Part shown: one piece after another, positions 45,322 to 52,673 of the stretch
Layout of the letters: the number at the start of each line of letters is the position of its first letter
Position numbering within the stretch: the stretch's first letter is position 1
Assembly (NCBI RefSeq): GCF_000159355.1
Contig: NZ_GG670120.1
Location: 352,209 to 416,208, forward strand
DNA from: Lactobacillus johnsonii ATCC 33200
GTDB taxonomy: Bacteria; Bacillota; Bacilli; Lactobacillales; Lactobacillaceae
Length of the DNA stretch: 64,000 nt
Direction: 5' to 3'
The notes under the pieces: model-generated
The model's database searches: none
The model's input: only the letters and a program-made list of their open reading frames with translations
Told to the model about the DNA's origin: nothing
Program-made: the position numbers and the translations under genes

Positions 45322-45675
45322 TGCGTTATGATGAAATTAGGCATAACGGAGAAGGATTGTTGTCAAGATCTCGGTCCAGAATTTATTAATAATATTAGTA
45401 ATAAATTCAGTTCCAAGATCGGCTACTAGAGAATATGTTTCTTGATCTAGGGTAATCCAGAAGACTCCCACAATTAATAGGAGAATTCGTGTTCTAGGAG
45501 AGAGATTCATATTGGGTCCTTTCGTCTTTATGGTAACATGAAGATACATGACATTACTGAGTAGTTATAATTCATCTCACTGTTTATTCTGTTATGAATT
45601 ATAAGTCTGATTTTTTGTACCCACTGGTTAGGAACGCTATTCTCCGTTGCCAGTGGGTATCGTCATTTATTGGGG
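45322..45675 (+). ncRNA. Structured ncRNA of RT cassette A
   Basis: About 350 nt between promoter and RT, homologous to 50998-51343. Stems seen: CGTTATG/CATAACG at the 5' end; GAATTTATTA/TAATAAATTC (10 bp); TTTCTT/GAGAGA; CTCC/GGAG (45465-45468 with 45480-45483); TTATAATTCAT/ATGAATTATAA (45565-45575 with 45594-45604); and TACCCACTGG/CCAGTGGGTA (45618-45659) just before the RT start. The CTCC/GGAG stem is CTTC/GAAG in copy B, a compensatory change. RTs that defend against phages commonly use such an adjacent RNA as template. Ends are estimated. Confidence 0.75.
45337..45549 (-). other. Conserved antisense open frame within ncRNA A (70 codons)
   Basis: On the strand opposite to the ncRNA a frame runs from ATG 45549 to a stop at 45337. 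The paralogous RNA at 51013-51216 has the homologous frame of 67 codons, differing by a 9-base (three-codon) indel and about 20 substitutions, with an identical core VFWITLDQET. The sense-strand frame is closed by a stop in copy B, so only the antisense frame is kept in both. No ribosome site or promoter is visible for direct expression; it may matter only in cDNA made by the RT. Confidence 0.45.
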
Positions 45676-45680
45676 TAATT

Positions 45681-46983
45681 ATGAATATTAATGAATGGTT
45701 TAAAGATCCGAAAGTATTAGAAAAGAGTAAAAGAGGATATGCTCATTTTGATCTTCGAACTGATTTAAGTAAATGTAGAAACTATATTACTAAGCCTGAA
45801 AATATCGCGCATCATGGTTTTTATCCATTTATAAAATATGATCTTAAATATCATAAATATAATAGGACGGAAGGAAGAAAAACAAAGAAGCGTACCATTT
45901 GTTATGCATCTCATATTGATAGTTGTATTTTTCAATATTATAGTTGCTTGATTAATGAAAAATATAATTCTCGTTTAAGACAAGACGATATTAATAAAGT
46001 TCCGATTGCCTACCGAACGAATTTACATACGGACACCATTGCCGAATTTAACAAGATGTATCAGTTTATGATTCAATACTCTTCTTCGTATATCATGATT
46101 GGCGATTTTACTAGCTTTTTTGATAGAATTAACCATCAATATTTAAAGAAGCAATTATGTGATTTATTGCAGGTAGATCGACTCAAGGCAGACTACTATG
46201 CAATTTTTAAGAGAGTTACCAACTATGACTATTGGGATTTAAAGGATATTTATCGTTTAAACAATCTTGATCTAAAAAAGAAAAAAGACAAAATTAAGCT
46301 AAATTCTAAGTTGAGAATTCTCTCTCAAAGTGATTATAAGAAATATCGCTCACATATTGAGCGTCATCAAGATAATAAAGGAATTCCGCAAGGATCATCG
46401 ATTAGTGGATGTCTAGCAAATGTTTATATGTTAGAAATTGACAAGATGATTAACGACTTCGTAGTATCGCATGGCGGTATATATAGAAGATATAGCGACG
46501 ATTTTATAATTATTTTGCCGATGGCTACGAGTTCGTTAGATGATATTGAAGTAATTATTAAGCGTTTTGAATCATTTAAGGGCCGGGGTATCTTGGAGCT
46601 GCAGCCAGAGAAAACGCAAGTCTATAAATTACAAAATCATGTTTACACCACGCCTGAATGAAAAGAATAAAACAATTAATTTTCTTGGTTTTACCTTTGA
46701 TGGAACTGCAATAGCAATTCGTGATAAAACGACGAGCAAGTATTATTATCGAATGGGACATAAGGCCAAAGGCGTTGCCCATCAACATTGGCGGGGTAAA
46801 GGTTACCAAGGTTCAGATAAGTTGTATCGTTTGTATTCTCCAAAGGGAAAGTACGGAAAGGGTAATTACTTTACGTATTTAAGTAGGACCCAGAAATCTT
46901 TTCCGAACCACTCAATTATGATTCGAGAAGATAGAATTATGACGAAGATTAGATTAATTTTGAAAAATAATAGGTGGGGATAG
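45681..46983 (+). pseudogene. Defence-type reverse transcriptase A, frameshifted
   Basis: Homologous throughout to the intact RT at 51348 (about four fifths identical). The catalytic core is intact: GDFTSFFDRI (motif A), GIPQGSSIS, and YSDDF (motif C). After residue about 322, a 21-base deletion between two CAT triplets plus loss of 2 more bases shifts the frame and ends the protein at 46661. The rest (NFLGFTFDG primer-grip-like motif and thumb region) continues in another frame to 46983. A truncated 327-residue product without thumb is unlikely to be active. Confidence 0.85.
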
Positions 46984-47435: not shown

Positions 47436-48593
47436 ATGGAACAATTAAGTCTTTTTTCAAAAGAAATAGAGAGAAAGCCGCGACCAGCAAATATCCCAGC
47501 GGTACCAAAAACTAAAGATACACAGGCTAGTTATTCGGTATGGGGATGGTTATTTCAAATTACGGCAGCCATAGTTTTAGGCTTAAAATATCGAAAAAAT
47601 ATGACTAAGATTAAGGTCGAAGGAAAAACAGAAGATATTGAATTATATTTTAGTGACAGAGATCCAATCTATGTTCAAGCAAAATCAACTGGAAAATCTA
47701 TCGAAGAGAATGATAATGCAACTGCTCATTGTACTGCAGCAATGAATACTTTAATTAACACAACTAACATACACAAAAATAAATATTCAGAACTAATTTA
47801 TATAAGTAATTATCTTAATCCATTGAAGTTATCTGAGGAAATATGGCGAGCAATGTGGAAGCCAGAAAAAACGGAATTATTTTTAGCTAGTTTTGAAGAA
47901 GACATACCTAAAGAAGGACAAGAATATTTATTAGAACGTATCAAAGCTGCACAAAAACAGTTAATGGATGGAAAATATTTATATACTACTACATATTTTT
48001 CATTGAAAAAGTTAAATGTGGCAACTTTAATATTCTCTAGAAAAAATAGTATTGGTCAAGAGGAAAATATCAAAGAATGTAGAACTTTGAATAATTTGAT
48101 CGATAAAATATTAGAAAGCGATCATACAGGAAAACTACGAGAAAGCATAGAAGCTGAATTATATCGTAGATATCACAATAACGCTACTAATTTTGAACTT
48201 ATGATAAAAAAGGAAGAGATATGTGGAATTTTTATTTATAAAATTATTCAAGAAGCACCTGAAACATACTTAGAAAAATACGTTCCTATCTTTAATCAAC
48301 GCGAAGTGAATACCTATGCAGACGATTTTATAGTAAAGCAATCACAAAATATAGATGTAATAAATAAAATATTATCTGATTTTTTGACTTTTGATGGACA
48401 AAAGTATCCAACTGAAGCTGAGAAAGAAGAGGCGTTTTTAGAACAAGAAAGTCGTGATAAAGAATTAGAAAATTACTTTCCACTTTCAGATAATGATGAA
48501 ATAAGAAAAGAGTGTCTAAAATATTTAACATACAAGATACTTTATAAACAACAAGTTATAACTCAAACAAAAAAGGAATTTAATATCCAATGA
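47436..48593 (+). CDS. Cap4/DUF4297-like nuclease, defence operon gene 1
   Basis: 385 residues. The N-terminal ~90 residues have the PD-(D/E)xK-like pattern of DUF4297/Cap4 dsDNA nucleases: SVWGWLFQITAAIVLGL, then VEGKTEDIEL (E62, D67) and PIYVQAKST (Q81-x-K83). The rest is helical and without known motifs, likely the sensor/complex part. The stop overlaps the ATPase start (ATGA). In Lamassu (LmuA) and ABC-three-component systems such a nuclease is the effector released by an SMC-like ATPase on invasion. Weak ribosome site, very AT-rich: signs of transfer. Confidence 0.7.
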   Translation: MEQLSLFSKEIERKPRPANIPAVPKTKDTQASYSVWGWLFQITAAIVLGLKYRKNMTKIKVEGKTEDIELYFSDRDPIYVQAKSTGKSIEENDNATAHCTAAMNTLINTTNIHKNKYSELIYISNYLNPLKLSEEIWRAMWKPEKTELFLASFEEDIPKEGQEYLLERIKAAQKQLMDGKYLYTTTYFSLKKLNVATLIFSRKNSIGQEENIKECRTLNNLIDKILESDHTGKLRESIEAELYRRYHNNATNFELMIKKEEICGIFIYKIIQEAPETYLEKYVPIFNQREVNTYADDFIVKQSQNIDVINKILSDFLTFDGQKYPTEAEKEEAFLEQESRDKELENYFPLSDNDEIRKECLKYLTYKILYKQQVITQTKKEFNIQ

Positions 48594-50095
48594 TTATAAA
48601 AGAAATGAAAATCCAGTCTTCGGAAGGAAAAAGAATATTTTCTTTTTCAACAAAAAATATTATTTTTAGTAAAAAAAATTCGGTTGGAAAAAGCACCTTG
48701 TTAAGAATATTGTTTTATGGATTGGGGTATCCAATACCGAGTACTTATAAAATGAAATTTAAAAAATTAAAAATATGGGTAACGTTTCAGCGAGATAATA
48801 ATTTATATCAAAGTTATCGGTATTCTGACTATTTAGAATTAAAAAAGAATGGAGAAATTTTTTATACAGATCCAATCTCTTCGAATTTATCTTCGTGGTA
48901 TTCTCTAATTTGGGGCATTGATTCGTTAACAGTTTTAGACAATCTATTGGGTGCAATATATTTGGAGCAGGATAAAGGATGGACTTTATTAAATCGTGGC
49001 AAAATAATTGGAAATATAAGCTTTAATATTCGAGATCTTTTAATAGGATTGTCTGAAAATAATTCTGAAATATTAAATATGATAAGCGAAAAGAATCGTT
49101 TAAAACAAATTAAAGAAGAGACAAAAGCAATATTAAAATTAAGTGAGTATACTAATTATTCAAACAAACCTGTAGAAGAGGATATAGAATTAAGCGATGA
49201 AGATTTAAATAAATATAAGAATTTAAAAATTCAAGAACGCTTTTTAAAAACACGCATCAACGAATTGAAAAGAACTATAAATAGAACAAATTCCTTGAAA
49301 AATTATATTTATAGTTTGAATCTTTTAATTAAAAACCCAATTGCTGATAAACCCCCAATAGTAGTAAATAAAAAAAATAATAATTTAATGCATTTTGACT
49401 CTACAACTGACTATCTAAAAACAGAATTAGTAAGTTTACAGCTAGATCTTAATGATATTCAAAAACAAAAAGTAGAATTAGATAGAAAATTGGATGAAGA
49501 TACGAATTCTTTATTTAGAACTGAAGATGTGGTTCAAAGCTCATTAAAAGCACTAAGTCATATAAAAATTAATAGAGAATTAATAGAAAAAAGACAAGAT
49601 AATTTAGATAAAGAAATAGATGATTTGAATAAAGAAATAGATGAAGAATTTAAAAAAAATAAAGAGATATTATCTGAAACTGAAGCGTGGATACGAAAGT
49701 TTGCAAAAATTCTGGGAATAGAAGATGTAATTAATTCTCATAGAGATTATTTATTTACTCACGATATAAAATCAATTAGTGGTACGCAATATTATAAAGT
49801 TGTTTTTTGCTTTAAGATGGCTTACATAAAGGTTATTGAAAATCATACTCAAACGTCTCTTCCTATCTTTTTAGATTCTCCAAGTGGTAGAGAAGTAACT
49901 AAAAGTAATATTGATAAAGTAATTAGAATTTTAAATGAATATTTCGAAAAAAATCAAATAATCATTGCTTCTATTTTTGATTATAATTTAAAAAATAAGA
50001 ACATAATTGAAATTAAAAATAAAATTTTTGAATCAAATAATGTAGATAGACCAGAAATAGAGTTACTAAAAGATTCAGACTTTAAGAATAAATAA
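48590..50095 (+). CDS. SMC/RecF-like ATPase, defence operon gene 2
   Basis: 501 residues. Walker A is SKKNSVGKST at 27-36, with Lys at the place of the first Gly. A long coiled coil (about 170-390) separates it from the Walker B-like strand LPIFLDSPSGREV (near 428) and the terminal D-loop/H-loop region. This is the layout of SMC-like sensors such as LmuB or ABC-3C ATPases, though shorter than most LmuB. It overlaps the nuclease by 4 bases. No third (middle) component is present, so the system is a two-gene type. Confidence 0.7.
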   Translation: MIIKEMKIQSSEGKRIFSFSTKNIIFSKKNSVGKSTLLRILFYGLGYPIPSTYKMKFKKLKIWVTFQRDNNLYQSYRYSDYLELKKNGEIFYTDPISSNLSSWYSLIWGIDSLTVLDNLLGAIYLEQDKGWTLLNRGKIIGNISFNIRDLLIGLSENNSEILNMISEKNRLKQIKEETKAILKLSEYTNYSNKPVEEDIELSDEDLNKYKNLKIQERFLKTRINELKRTINRTNSLKNYIYSLNLLIKNPIADKPPIVVNKKNNNLMHFDSTTDYLKTELVSLQLDLNDIQKQKVELDRKLDEDTNSLFRTEDVVQSSLKALSHIKINRELIEKRQDNLDKEIDDLNKEIDEEFKKNKEILSETEAWIRKFAKILGIEDVINSHRDYLFTHDIKSISGTQYYKVVFCFKMAYIKVIENHTQTSLPIFLDSPSGREVTKSNIDKVIRILNEYFEKNQIIIASIFDYNLKNKNIIEIKNKIFESNNVDRPEIELLKDSDFKNK

Positions 50096-50223: not shown

Positions 50224-50865
50224 ATGGTTTACTTATCAACTGACTACGTCTTTGATGGTCAAGGAACTACTCCTTGGGAACCTGACTTCAAGGGTTACAA
50301 GCCATTAAATGTTTATGGTGAAACTAAGCTTGGCGGAGAAGAAGCTGTTGCTAATACTTTAGACAAGTACTTCATCGTTCGTATTGCTTGGGTATTTGGT
50401 GTAAATGGTTCTAACTTTATTAAGACAATGCTTAAAGTTGGTTCAAACCATGATGAAGTTAAAGTTGTTAGCGACCAAGTAGGTACACCAACTTATACTT
50501 TTGATTTAGCTCGCTTATTGGTAGACATGATTGAAACTGATAAGTACGGCTACTACCATGCAACTAATGCGGAATTACCAGCAAGTGAAGGCAACCATGA
50601 CGAAAATGGTACTAAGACCGGCTATATTTCTTGGTACGATTTTACTAAAGAAATCTACCGTCAAGCAGGCTACAAGACTAAGGTAACTCCTGTAACTACT
50701 GAAGAATATGGTTTATCAAAGGCTGTTCGTCCATTTAACTCTCGCTTAGACAAGAGTAAGTTAGAAGAAAACGGCTTTAAGCCACTTCCAACTTGGCCGG
50801 ACGCTATTAGCCGATACTTAGACATTTTAAAGGACGACGGCTTCTTTGATGAGTTGGGTAAGTAA
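50224..50865 (+). pseudogene. rmlD: dTDP-4-dehydrorhamnose reductase, N-terminally truncated
   Basis: 213 residues align to the C-terminal three quarters of RmlD: VYLSTDYVFDGQG, the catalytic YGETK (Y-x3-K), and SRLDKSKLEENGF. The N-terminal Rossmann GxxGxxG part is missing. Upstream, a decayed in-frame segment (LSDAKRIA-stop-DAPMVYLSTDY) shows this is a damaged gene, not a short variant. Codons are strongly biased as in native housekeeping genes, unlike the defence genes before it. So the rhamnose operon of the EPS locus once lay here and was largely replaced. Confidence 0.85.
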
Positions 50866-50963: not shown

Positions 50964-50992
50964 TTGATAAAATTATTTTTTATTTATATTAT
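50964..50992 (+). promoter_or_regulatory. Promoter of RT cassette B
   Basis: TTGATA - 17 bases - TATTAT, same geometry as in cassette A, about 6 nt before the first ncRNA stem. Confidence 0.78.
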
Positions 50993-50997
50993 ATAAT

Positions 50998-51343
50998 TGC
51001 GTTATGATGAAATTAGGCATAACGGAAAAGGATTGAAGTCAAGATCTTGGTCGAGAATTGATTAATAATAAATTCAATGCCAAGTTTGATGACTGAAGAA
51101 TGTGTTTCTTGATCTAAGGTAATCCAGAAGACTTCCACAATTAATAGAAGAACTTGTAATCTTGGAGAAAGACTCATAACAATTCCTTTCGTCTTTATAA
51201 TAACATGAAGATGCATGATATTACTGAGTAGTTGTAATTCATCTCAGTGTTTATCTGTCATGGATTATAAGATTTTTTACACAGTACCCACTGGTTAGGA
51301 ACGCTACTCTCCGTTGCCAGTGGGTATCGTCATTTATTGGGGT
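50998..51343 (+). ncRNA. Structured ncRNA of RT cassette B
   Basis: Homologue of the RNA at 45322. The first 27 nt (stem CGTTATG/CATAACG) and the terminal hairpin TACCCACTGG/CCAGTGGGTA (51285-51326) are unchanged, while the middle has diverged with structure kept: CTTC/GAAG (51132-51135 with 51147-51150) replaces CTCC/GGAG, and TTGTAATTCAT/ATGGATTATAA (51232-51242 with 51260-51270) keeps pairing through two G-U changes. The last hairpin ends 21 nt before the RT ATG. Likely template or cofactor of the RT. Confidence 0.78.
51013..51216 (-). other. Conserved antisense open frame within ncRNA B (67 codons)
   Basis: From ATG 51216 to a stop at 51013, homologous in phase and position to the frame antisense to ncRNA A. 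It is hydrophobic in the middle (QVLLLIVEVFWITLDQET). The sense strand is closed by a TGA shortly after the first hairpin. In DRT2 systems an RT copies the ncRNA into concatemers that carry an endless 'neo' frame; this frame is the obvious candidate here, but the repeat boundaries cannot be read from sequence. Confidence 0.45.
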
Positions 51344-51347
51344 AATT

Positions 51348-52673
51348 ATGAATATTAATGAATGGTTTGAAGACCCAAAAGTATTTGAAAAGAGTAAAAG
51401 AGAATATGCACATTTTGATCTTCGAACTGATTTAGCTAAATGCAAGAAATATATTACTAATTCTAAAAATATTGAGCGACATGGTTTTTATCCGTTTATA
51501 AAATATGATCTTGAATATCATAAATATAATAGGGCGGAAGGAAGAAAAACAAAGAAGCGTACCATTTGTTATGCATCTCATATTGATAGTTGTATTTTTC
51601 AATATTATAGTTTTTTAATTAATAAAAAATATAATGCACGTCTAAAACAAGATGGCATTTACGAAGTGCCAATAGCATATCGAACAGATCTACATACAGA
51701 TACTATTGCTGAATTTAGAAAAATGCATCAGTTCATGATTCAGCATCCTTCTTCTTATGTTATGATTGGCGATTTTACAAGCTTTTTTGACAAAATTGAC
51801 CATCAATATTTAAAAGAGCGCTTATGTGATTTATTACAAGTCGATAAGCTTAATTCCGATTATTATGCGATATTTAAACGAATTACCAAATATGATTATT
51901 GGGATTTAACAGATCTCTATCGATTAAATAATCTTAATCCAAAGAAGAGAAAAGATAAGATTAAGATAAATTCTAAAGTAAGAATTCTCTCTCAAAGTGA
52001 TTATAAGAAATATCGATCACACATTAGGCAACATCAAGACAATAAAGGAATTCCGCAAGGCTCATCAATTAGTGCATGTCTAGCAAATGTTTATATGTTA
52101 GAAATTGATCGGCTGATTAATGAATTTGTAGTTGCACGTGGCGGTATTTATAGAAAATACAGTGACGATTTTATAATTATCTTACCTATGGATACTAGTT
52201 CAACTGATGATATTGAAAAAATAATTCTAAAATTTGGAGCATTTAAAGATAAAGGTATTTTGGAATTACAACCAGAAAAGACGCAAGTTTATAAATTACA
52301 AGACCATTCAGTCGTGAATATCGGTCATCTTTTTACTCCGAGCTTGAATGAAAAGAACAAAACAATTAATTTTATTGGCTTTACTTTTGACGGTAATGCA
52401 ATAAAAATACGCGAAAAAACAACAAGTAAATATTATTATCGAATGCATCATAAAGCTAAAGGTGTCGCTCATCAATATTATCGTAATAAGTATTACAAGG
52501 GTGCAGATAAGTTATATCAACTGTATTCTCCAAATGGTCAGTATGGAAAAGGTAATTATTTTACTTATTTAAGTAGAGTTCAGAATGCTTTCCCCAACCA
52601 ATCTATTATGATTTCAGAGGATAGGATTATGACGAATATTAGGCTGACTTTGAAGAAAAATAGGTGGGGATAG
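51348..52673 (+). CDS. Defence-type reverse transcriptase B (UG/DRT2-like)
   Basis: 441 residues, single RT domain plus thumb, no maturase, endonuclease or nitrilase part. Motif A is GDFTSFFDKI (D142), the PQGSSIS motif is at 236-242, the catalytic YSDDF at 271-275, and NFIGFTFDG near 341. CYASHIDSCIFQYY precedes motif A, a feature of unknown-group (UG) RTs. Retron hallmarks (NAxxH, VTG) are absent. With a structured RNA upstream it fits a DRT; DRT2 is the best guess from length and layout, but class is unproven. Highly related copy at 45681. Confidence 0.78.
   Translation: MNINEWFEDPKVFEKSKREYAHFDLRTDLAKCKKYITNSKNIERHGFYPFIKYDLEYHKYNRAEGRKTKKRTICYASHIDSCIFQYYSFLINKKYNARLKQDGIYEVPIAYRTDLHTDTIAEFRKMHQFMIQHPSSYVMIGDFTSFFDKIDHQYLKERLCDLLQVDKLNSDYYAIFKRITKYDYWDLTDLYRLNNLNPKKRKDKIKINSKVRILSQSDYKKYRSHIRQHQDNKGIPQGSSISACLANVYMLEIDRLINEFVVARGGIYRKYSDDFIIILPMDTSSTDDIEKIILKFGAFKDKGILELQPEKTQVYKLQDHSVVNIGHLFTPSLNEKNKTINFIGFTFDGNAIKIREKTTSKYYYRMHHKAKGVAHQYYRNKYYKGADKLYQLYSPNGQYGKGNYFTYLSRVQNAFPNQSIMISEDRIMTNIRLTLKKNRWG

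Follow-up and report, generated by a model that had tools for sequence, protein, structure and literature searches.

A Lactobacillus DRT2 cassette with a predicted permuted neo gene opposite its noncoding RNA

In the DRT2 system of Klebsiella pneumoniae (KpnDRT2; PDB 9c0i), a single reverse transcriptase (RT) gene lies downstream of a structured noncoding RNA (ncRNA). The chain of events reported for DRT2 runs from binding of the ncRNA and its repeated copying through a second strand and a rebuilt promoter to the protein Neo and growth arrest (PMC11100668, PMC12039810). The repeated unit is given as 120 nt in Klebsiella and 111 to 129 nt in close relatives, the -35 and -10 boxes are rebuilt at a 17-bp spacing, and Neo leans to hydrophobic codons (PMC12039810). 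For divergent DRT2 clades, Neo is reported to be hard to annotate, and other mechanisms are suspected (PMC11100668). A further system of the anti-phage type that combines an RT with an ncRNA, DRT9 (UG28), is reported to make poly-dA (PMC12483538).

We analyzed a 64,000-nt stretch of the Lactobacillus johnsonii ATCC 33200 genome (the window), which holds two cassettes of this kind, A and B. A sequence-only reading had described cassette B as a TTGATA-17-TATTAT promoter, an RNA-like stretch and an intact 441-aa RT with YSDD and no maturase hallmark, and had taken it for a DRT system, DRT2-like or of an undescribed subtype. These parts are indeed present, and the system can be named more precisely:

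50964..50992, + strand: promoter of the ncRNA and RT, TTGATA-17-TATTAT (from the sequence; predicted promoter)
50999..51024, + strand: 5′ hairpin of the ncRNA (CGTTATG/CATAACG), counterpart of the 5′ handle or SL1 (sequence, fold and start of the RT-6 covariance model match)
51348..52673, + strand: intact DRT2 RT, 441 aa, YSDD (open reading frame [ORF], PADLOC, Pfam, match to 9c0i, tree)

The promoter boxes TTGATA (50964-50969) and TATTAT (50987-50992) are 17 nt apart, and TTGATA with a T/A-rich -10 recurs upstream of cassette A and of three relatives, L004, L005 and L006. The ncRNA (50999-51347) folds at -90.2 kcal/mol (z = -3.19), and none of 100 shuffled sequences was equally stable; by alignment, the region is homologous across relatives. 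The YSDD active site occupies residues 271-274 of the RT. At E values up to 0.001, Pfam finds RVT_1 as the sole domain, with neither a maturase domain nor an extra effector domain.

Three comparisons place the RT. PADLOC gives 414 bits for Drt2 (E = 2.1e-124), and the best listed non-Drt2 model reaches 57.6 bits; the likeness to DRT9 in layout thus ends at the enzyme, which scores 57.5 bits with the DRT9 model. When a profile of six homologues was compared with PDB, three Drt2-like chains matched at 2.8e-78 to 6.9e-76, with the solved Klebsiella Drt2, 9c0i, at 2.8e-78 and the first non-Drt2 chain at 4.6e-12. In a maximum-likelihood tree of 41 rows, in which DRT2 is represented by loci other than the Klebsiella one, the cassette B RT nests in a 16-row DRT2 clade (support 95/99) that includes three loci annotated drt2 (L051, L053 and L054). 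Within this clade it sits in a seven-row subclade (95/100) of six Bacilli and one faecal phage scaffold. The root of the tree is not trustworthy, because three outgroup rows have long branches. The tree, a check that the sequence-only reading had proposed, puts the RT inside the DRT2 clade, and these comparisons assign the cassette B enzyme to DRT2 (UG2).

Close cassettes occur in Lactobacillus taiwanensis (L004, RT identity 93%) and in two uncultured records (L005, 90%; L006, 82% in the best segment). Other Lactobacillus cassettes have RT identities of 85% (L008, with a broken RT), 76% (L091) and 56% (L092), and remoter ones 41% (L049) and 38% (L042). A survey of the genus found a match in 6 of 75 genomes, with the window's own genome counted. 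The contig of L006, which carries a Lactobacillus-like DRT2, is filed under a metagenome-assembled genome of Candidatus Avigastranaerophilus and is probably misbinned.

Opposite the ncRNA lies an open frame that the sequence-only reading missed, as it did cassette A and the Rfam match in the ncRNA of A. On the reverse strand of the ncRNA in A, B, L004, L005 and L006, one frame is open from before an extended -10 to the 5′ hairpin, and the same frame is open in L091, L092, L061, L049, L042 and L008. In cassette B it holds the following elements:

51026..51208, - strand: candidate neo template, or proto-gene, of 183 nt (61 codons) at a 17-bp junction spacer (a multiple of three in length, with an open circular frame; either end may be off by several nt)
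51037..51042, - strand: -35 box of the permuted neo promoter, TTGACT, which is TTGACA in relatives (sequence and relatives)
51197..51205, - strand: extended -10 of the permuted neo promoter, TGTTATTAT (sequence and strict motif test)
51175..51189, - strand: neo Shine-Dalgarno AAAGGA (51184-51189) and start codon ATG (51175-51177) (sequence)

Across these loci the frame has a ribosome site (AAAGGA or similar) and an ATG, which is preceded by an extended -10 of the form TGnTAnnAT. TTGACA stands towards the end of the frame; in B it reads TTGACT, and in L061 it is damaged. The TTGACT of cassette B is one mismatch, which we counted against the neo reading. The two promoter boxes stand in the wrong order, with the -35 at the far end of the frame and the -10 at its start. 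Joining the unit head to tail at a 17-bp spacer rebuilds both the promoter and an endless frame, with a unit of 183 nt in B and 192 nt in A. The predicted Neo repeats of six loci are hydrophobic, with GRAVY values of 0.51 to 0.92 and a best 19-residue window of 1.49 to 1.83. By eye, the extended -10 falls within a possible RNA hairpin (51193-51210). TAATGT was also considered as the upstream -10 and was dropped, since L005 reads TAGTGT.

Unit length was first measured from -10 and -35 sites set manually. We then used a strict test, which looked for TGnTAnnAT and TTGAC[AT] within 500 nt and at an allowed distance in ten loci: A, B, L004, L005, L006, L008, L091, L092, L042 and L049. Exactly one out-of-order pair was found on the reverse strand in 10/10 loci, the close cassettes among them not being independent, with motifs that, like the extended -10 rule of the scans described below, were chosen after seeing the sequences of this clade. 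At the 17-bp spacing the unit is 192 nt in A, L004, L005, L006, L008 and L091, 183 nt in B, 180 nt in L092, 165 nt in L042 and 141 nt in L049; in all ten it is divisible by 3 and has one open circular frame. The sense strand gave 0/10, the sole pair there (L049) being neither divisible by 3 nor open. L007/L036 and L090 have the same match identity as L004 and L005; they were taken as identical cassettes and left out of the strict test. L061 was also left out: it nearly duplicates the L049 system, its RT is truncated, and its -35 had been set by hand. That damaged -35 reads TCAACA, as expected after selection is lost. Four further loci (L043, L044, L062 and L063) and the plasmid loci entered the scans only.

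When units were dinucleotide-shuffled 2,000 times each, the frame was still open in 32 shuffles for A (1.6%), 108 for B (5.4%), 56 for L091 (2.8%), 40 for L092 (2.0%), 450 for L049 (22.5%) and 164 for L042 (8.2%). The product over four lineages (A, L092, L049 and L042), with the near clade counted as one lineage at A's rate, is about 6e-6. The scans required the 17-bp spacer, a unit divisible by three and a ribosome site with a start. With the start site included, candidates appeared in 12 of 16 loci, and shuffles gave 0 to 1.0% per locus (300 each); L053, L054, L055 and L056 gave none. In the annotated drt2 control L051 the unit is 111 nt long, which matches a length given for close relatives of the Klebsiella system (PMC12039810). 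Four members of the DRT2 clade, L053, L054, L055 and L062, two of them annotated drt2, have no scan candidate, a further point against the neo reading. A wider scan found candidates in 13/39 loci on the reverse strand versus 1/39 on the sense strand, with as little upstream sequence as 167 nt for L024 and 85 nt for L052.

Taken with the Klebsiella precedent, these data make it very probable that cassette B is an anti-phage system of DRT2 type, from a Bacilli lineage, that works by gene synthesis. As in KpnDRT2, it has a single RT gene, a structured ncRNA upstream, a 5′ hairpin and a 3′ scaffold, and, as predictions here, a template with a permuted promoter at 17-bp spacing, an endless frame and a hydrophobic Neo. 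Unlike in KpnDRT2, the unit is 183 or 192 nt rather than 120 nt (111 to 129 nt in Klebsiella relatives), the -10 is the extended TGnTAnnAT, and there are no paired ACA motifs. Judged by unit length and the missing ACA motifs, the DRT2 of cassette B is outside the Klebsiella-type subclade. By analogy, one promoter would drive both the ncRNA and the RT mRNA, and the RT would grip the ncRNA through the 5′ hairpin and the 3′ scaffold. On phage infection, the RT would copy the template of about 183 nt repeatedly, with a jump from the 5′ end of the template to its 3′ end after each round, and the repeated cDNA would be turned double-stranded. Each junction would place the -35 box 17 bp before the extended -10, so that host RNA polymerase could make a stop-free mRNA. 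Ribosomes would initiate at the ATG behind AAAGGA and produce Neo. This protein would be a hydrophobic chain of 61-aa repeats and may arrest the cell before phage release, its toxicity and the defense being projected from Klebsiella.

Cassette A lies about 5.7 kb upstream of cassette B, at 45323-46983:

45323..45680, + strand: cassette A ncRNA, intact (Rfam RT-6 match at 45322-45400; fold)
45350..45541, - strand: 192-nt candidate template for neo in cassette A, with 64 codons (ATG at 45508-45510, -35 at 45361-45366, extended -10 at 45530-45538)
45681..46983, + strand: cassette A DRT2 RT, split into two ORF pieces by a 23-nt deletion that shifts the frame (ORFs, alignment)

Its RT is 76 to 81% identical to that of B, the loss of 23 nt having cut it in two; its ncRNA folds better than all 100 shuffled sequences (z = -3.46). 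By alignment, cassette A is a diverged duplicate whose RT is lost and whose template is kept. Compared with L004, A is 98 to 99% identical in the ncRNA and 78 to 89% in RT segments, and the same comparison gives 83 to 90% and 91 to 97% for B, which suggests that templates and RTs have recombined. The neo template might then be an exchangeable cassette: the RT of B would serve two diverged ncRNAs, two Neo proteins would be made on infection, and templates would pass from one system to another independently of the RTs. We offer this as a speculative idea that is probably wrong.

As the sequence-only reading had it, the setting is a Lactobacillus EPS region: ORFs at 29-43 kb, which precede the cassettes, read by eye as an EPS cluster. 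Between both cassettes, at 47436-50095, two genes match the PADLOC candidate defense system PDC-M46A/B (2.3e-59 and 1.9e-138). An rmlD remnant without its first third follows at 50224-50865, where the match begins only at position 96 of the 287-position profile; Pfam also identifies an adjoining IS66 transposase. In a comparison with possible empty sites, the M48 peptidase loci L096-L098 were without rmlD in the flanks compared.

Decay does occur among these DRT2 cassettes, since the RTs of A and L008 are broken, and cassette B could likewise be a silent remnant, its RT ORF intact and the system no longer active. We consider this very improbable, given that B retains the intact ORF, YSDD, the promoter, the ncRNA fold and the open neo frame.

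A very improbable reading takes the frame opposite the ncRNA for a plain small antisense gene, such as a toxin restrained by the ncRNA, with no concatenation. The frame has what such a gene would use: a ribosome site, an ATG and a linear stop, with linear ORFs of 38 to 62 aa in 10/10 loci, and 54 to 57 aa in A and B, where the stop lies in the 5′ hairpin. An extended -10 can also work without a -35. However, the -35 is conserved at the far end of the frame and not upstream, where the best candidate in linear order has 2 to 4 mismatches and is not usable in any of the ten loci. The leader before the neo ATG is stop-free in frame in 10/10 loci, and the 17-bp join is in frame in 10/10; an antisense gene needs neither. 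For the leader and linear-order results, the ATG was picked to share the frame of the -35, which builds the agreement of their frames into the test. The neighboring RT, moreover, is a DRT2.

Gene synthesis is also to be weighed against the RT making cDNA that defends as DNA or through some other product, with the open frame a by-product of constraints from the -35, the -10 and the RNA. Alignment of A with B shows a sole indel inside the template, of 9 nt, or three codons in frame, and in the six closest loci this remains the template's only indel. The dN/dS of the neo frame is 0.07 to 0.45 among A, L004, L005 and L006, 0.49 to 0.84 in pairs with B or L091 (L008 aside) and 0.49 to 2.29 in pairs with L008, whose RT is decayed; these values are weak support for the frame, because counts are small and RNA structure also constrains sites. 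Other DRTs do act through DNA products, as reported for DRT9 (PMC12483538), and the dN/dS is not very low, but open frames of 47 to 64 codons recur in diverged units where shuffles stay open in 1.6 to 22.5%, and the template carries that single 9-nt indel against 1- and 2-nt gaps in the 3′ scaffold. Action through the DNA or another product is very improbable, the least likely of the three alternatives.

Downstream of the template lies the scaffold:

51215..51333, + strand: ncRNA 3′ scaffold, with a candidate pseudoknot (51215-51219/51329-51333), a stem (51232-51242/51260-51270) and a tower hairpin (51284-51327) (folding and comparison)

A five-pair helix, ATGAC/GTCAT, joins the stretch after the template with the one after the tower in A, L004, L005, L006, L008 and L091. 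It is compensated in L092 (AATTGG/CCAATT), the one set of compensatory changes behind this candidate pseudoknot. In B the sequence is ATGAT, with one G-U pair, and a different helix scores higher; in L049 and L042 the pairing is not above cross-pairing. Another pseudoknot, ACTGAG/CTCAGT within the stem loop, was rejected for mismatches in A, L004 and L005 (by eye). In Klebsiella, the reported pseudoknot pairs 155-159 with 250-254 (PMC12596737) and the template ends at 148 (PMC12039810), so that the pseudoknot starts seven nt past the template end. Carried over to B, this spacing would put the template end at 51208.

No single short direct repeat joining both template ends fits all of the 13 loci compared, a set that did not include L005. 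AGA/AGA at 17 bp occurs in A, L006 and L008 only; AAG/AAG is shared by A, B, L004 and L006, but puts the conserved -10 at a spacing of 14 bp. L091 agrees with neither of the two. In L042, L092 and L049 the ends carry AUU(G)/AUU(G), at 17 bp. No paired ACA motifs are among the end matches of A and B. When the template is split so as to end at 51208, its two ends both read AGA in A, L006 and L008, and L091 does not conform; the same split gives AAA and AGA in B and L004, which by eye could pair through a T-G wobble. Since every 17-bp split keeps the frame, the Neo reading stands, bar a residue or two at the junction.

The 5′ hairpin and the -35 side of the template are matched by the 75-position model of Rfam RT-6 (RF03027), which spans only about 80 nt of the RNA of about 350 nt. 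The neo -35 region is the complement of GGAUUGUUGUCAA, one of the model's conserved blocks. A (55.6 bits against a gathering score of 46.7), L004, L005 and L006 score above the gathering score; L008 and B fall below it, B on its own with 38.9 bits. A genome search with RT-6 at E values up to 0.001 gave matches in 5/397 genomes of the host's family and 4/398 of its class, the three weakest (L039, L040 and L050) scoring 26 to 28 bits. The literature collection searched listed nothing on RT-6 or on a Lactobacillus DRT2 neo.

Searches of viral contigs gave little. A protein-pattern scan matched four stretches, none of them a relative; a DNA-pattern scan gave four loci, all without an RT; and an alignment search returned three remote RTs and no useful relative. 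No close DNA copies of the cassette were found in plasmids. A separate set of 22 Lactobacillaceae loci (L009-L030) has longer RTs of 488 to 558 aa, apart from L010 with 452 aa. PADLOC ranks Drt2 first for the four tested (L009, L010, L011 and L020), and in the tree all except L010 fall outside the DRT2 clade. A neo candidate was seen in just two of the 22, L010 and L017. These RTs are possibly an undescribed RT group.

Gene synthesis by way of neo, as described in Klebsiella, seems to reach distantly related systems, a Gram-positive lineage among them. Cassette B belongs to a DRT2 lineage away from Klebsiella in which, as far as sequence comparison goes, the neo logic is kept and the parts are changed: a mostly Bacilli clade would keep it with longer units, an extended -10 and no ACA pair. 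A simple rule, a permuted -35 and -10 at 17 bp with a unit divisible by three, can find such hidden genes without alignment. Through the predicted neo template, the Rfam RT-6 RNA gains a possible function, and what drives the jump becomes testable by comparison.
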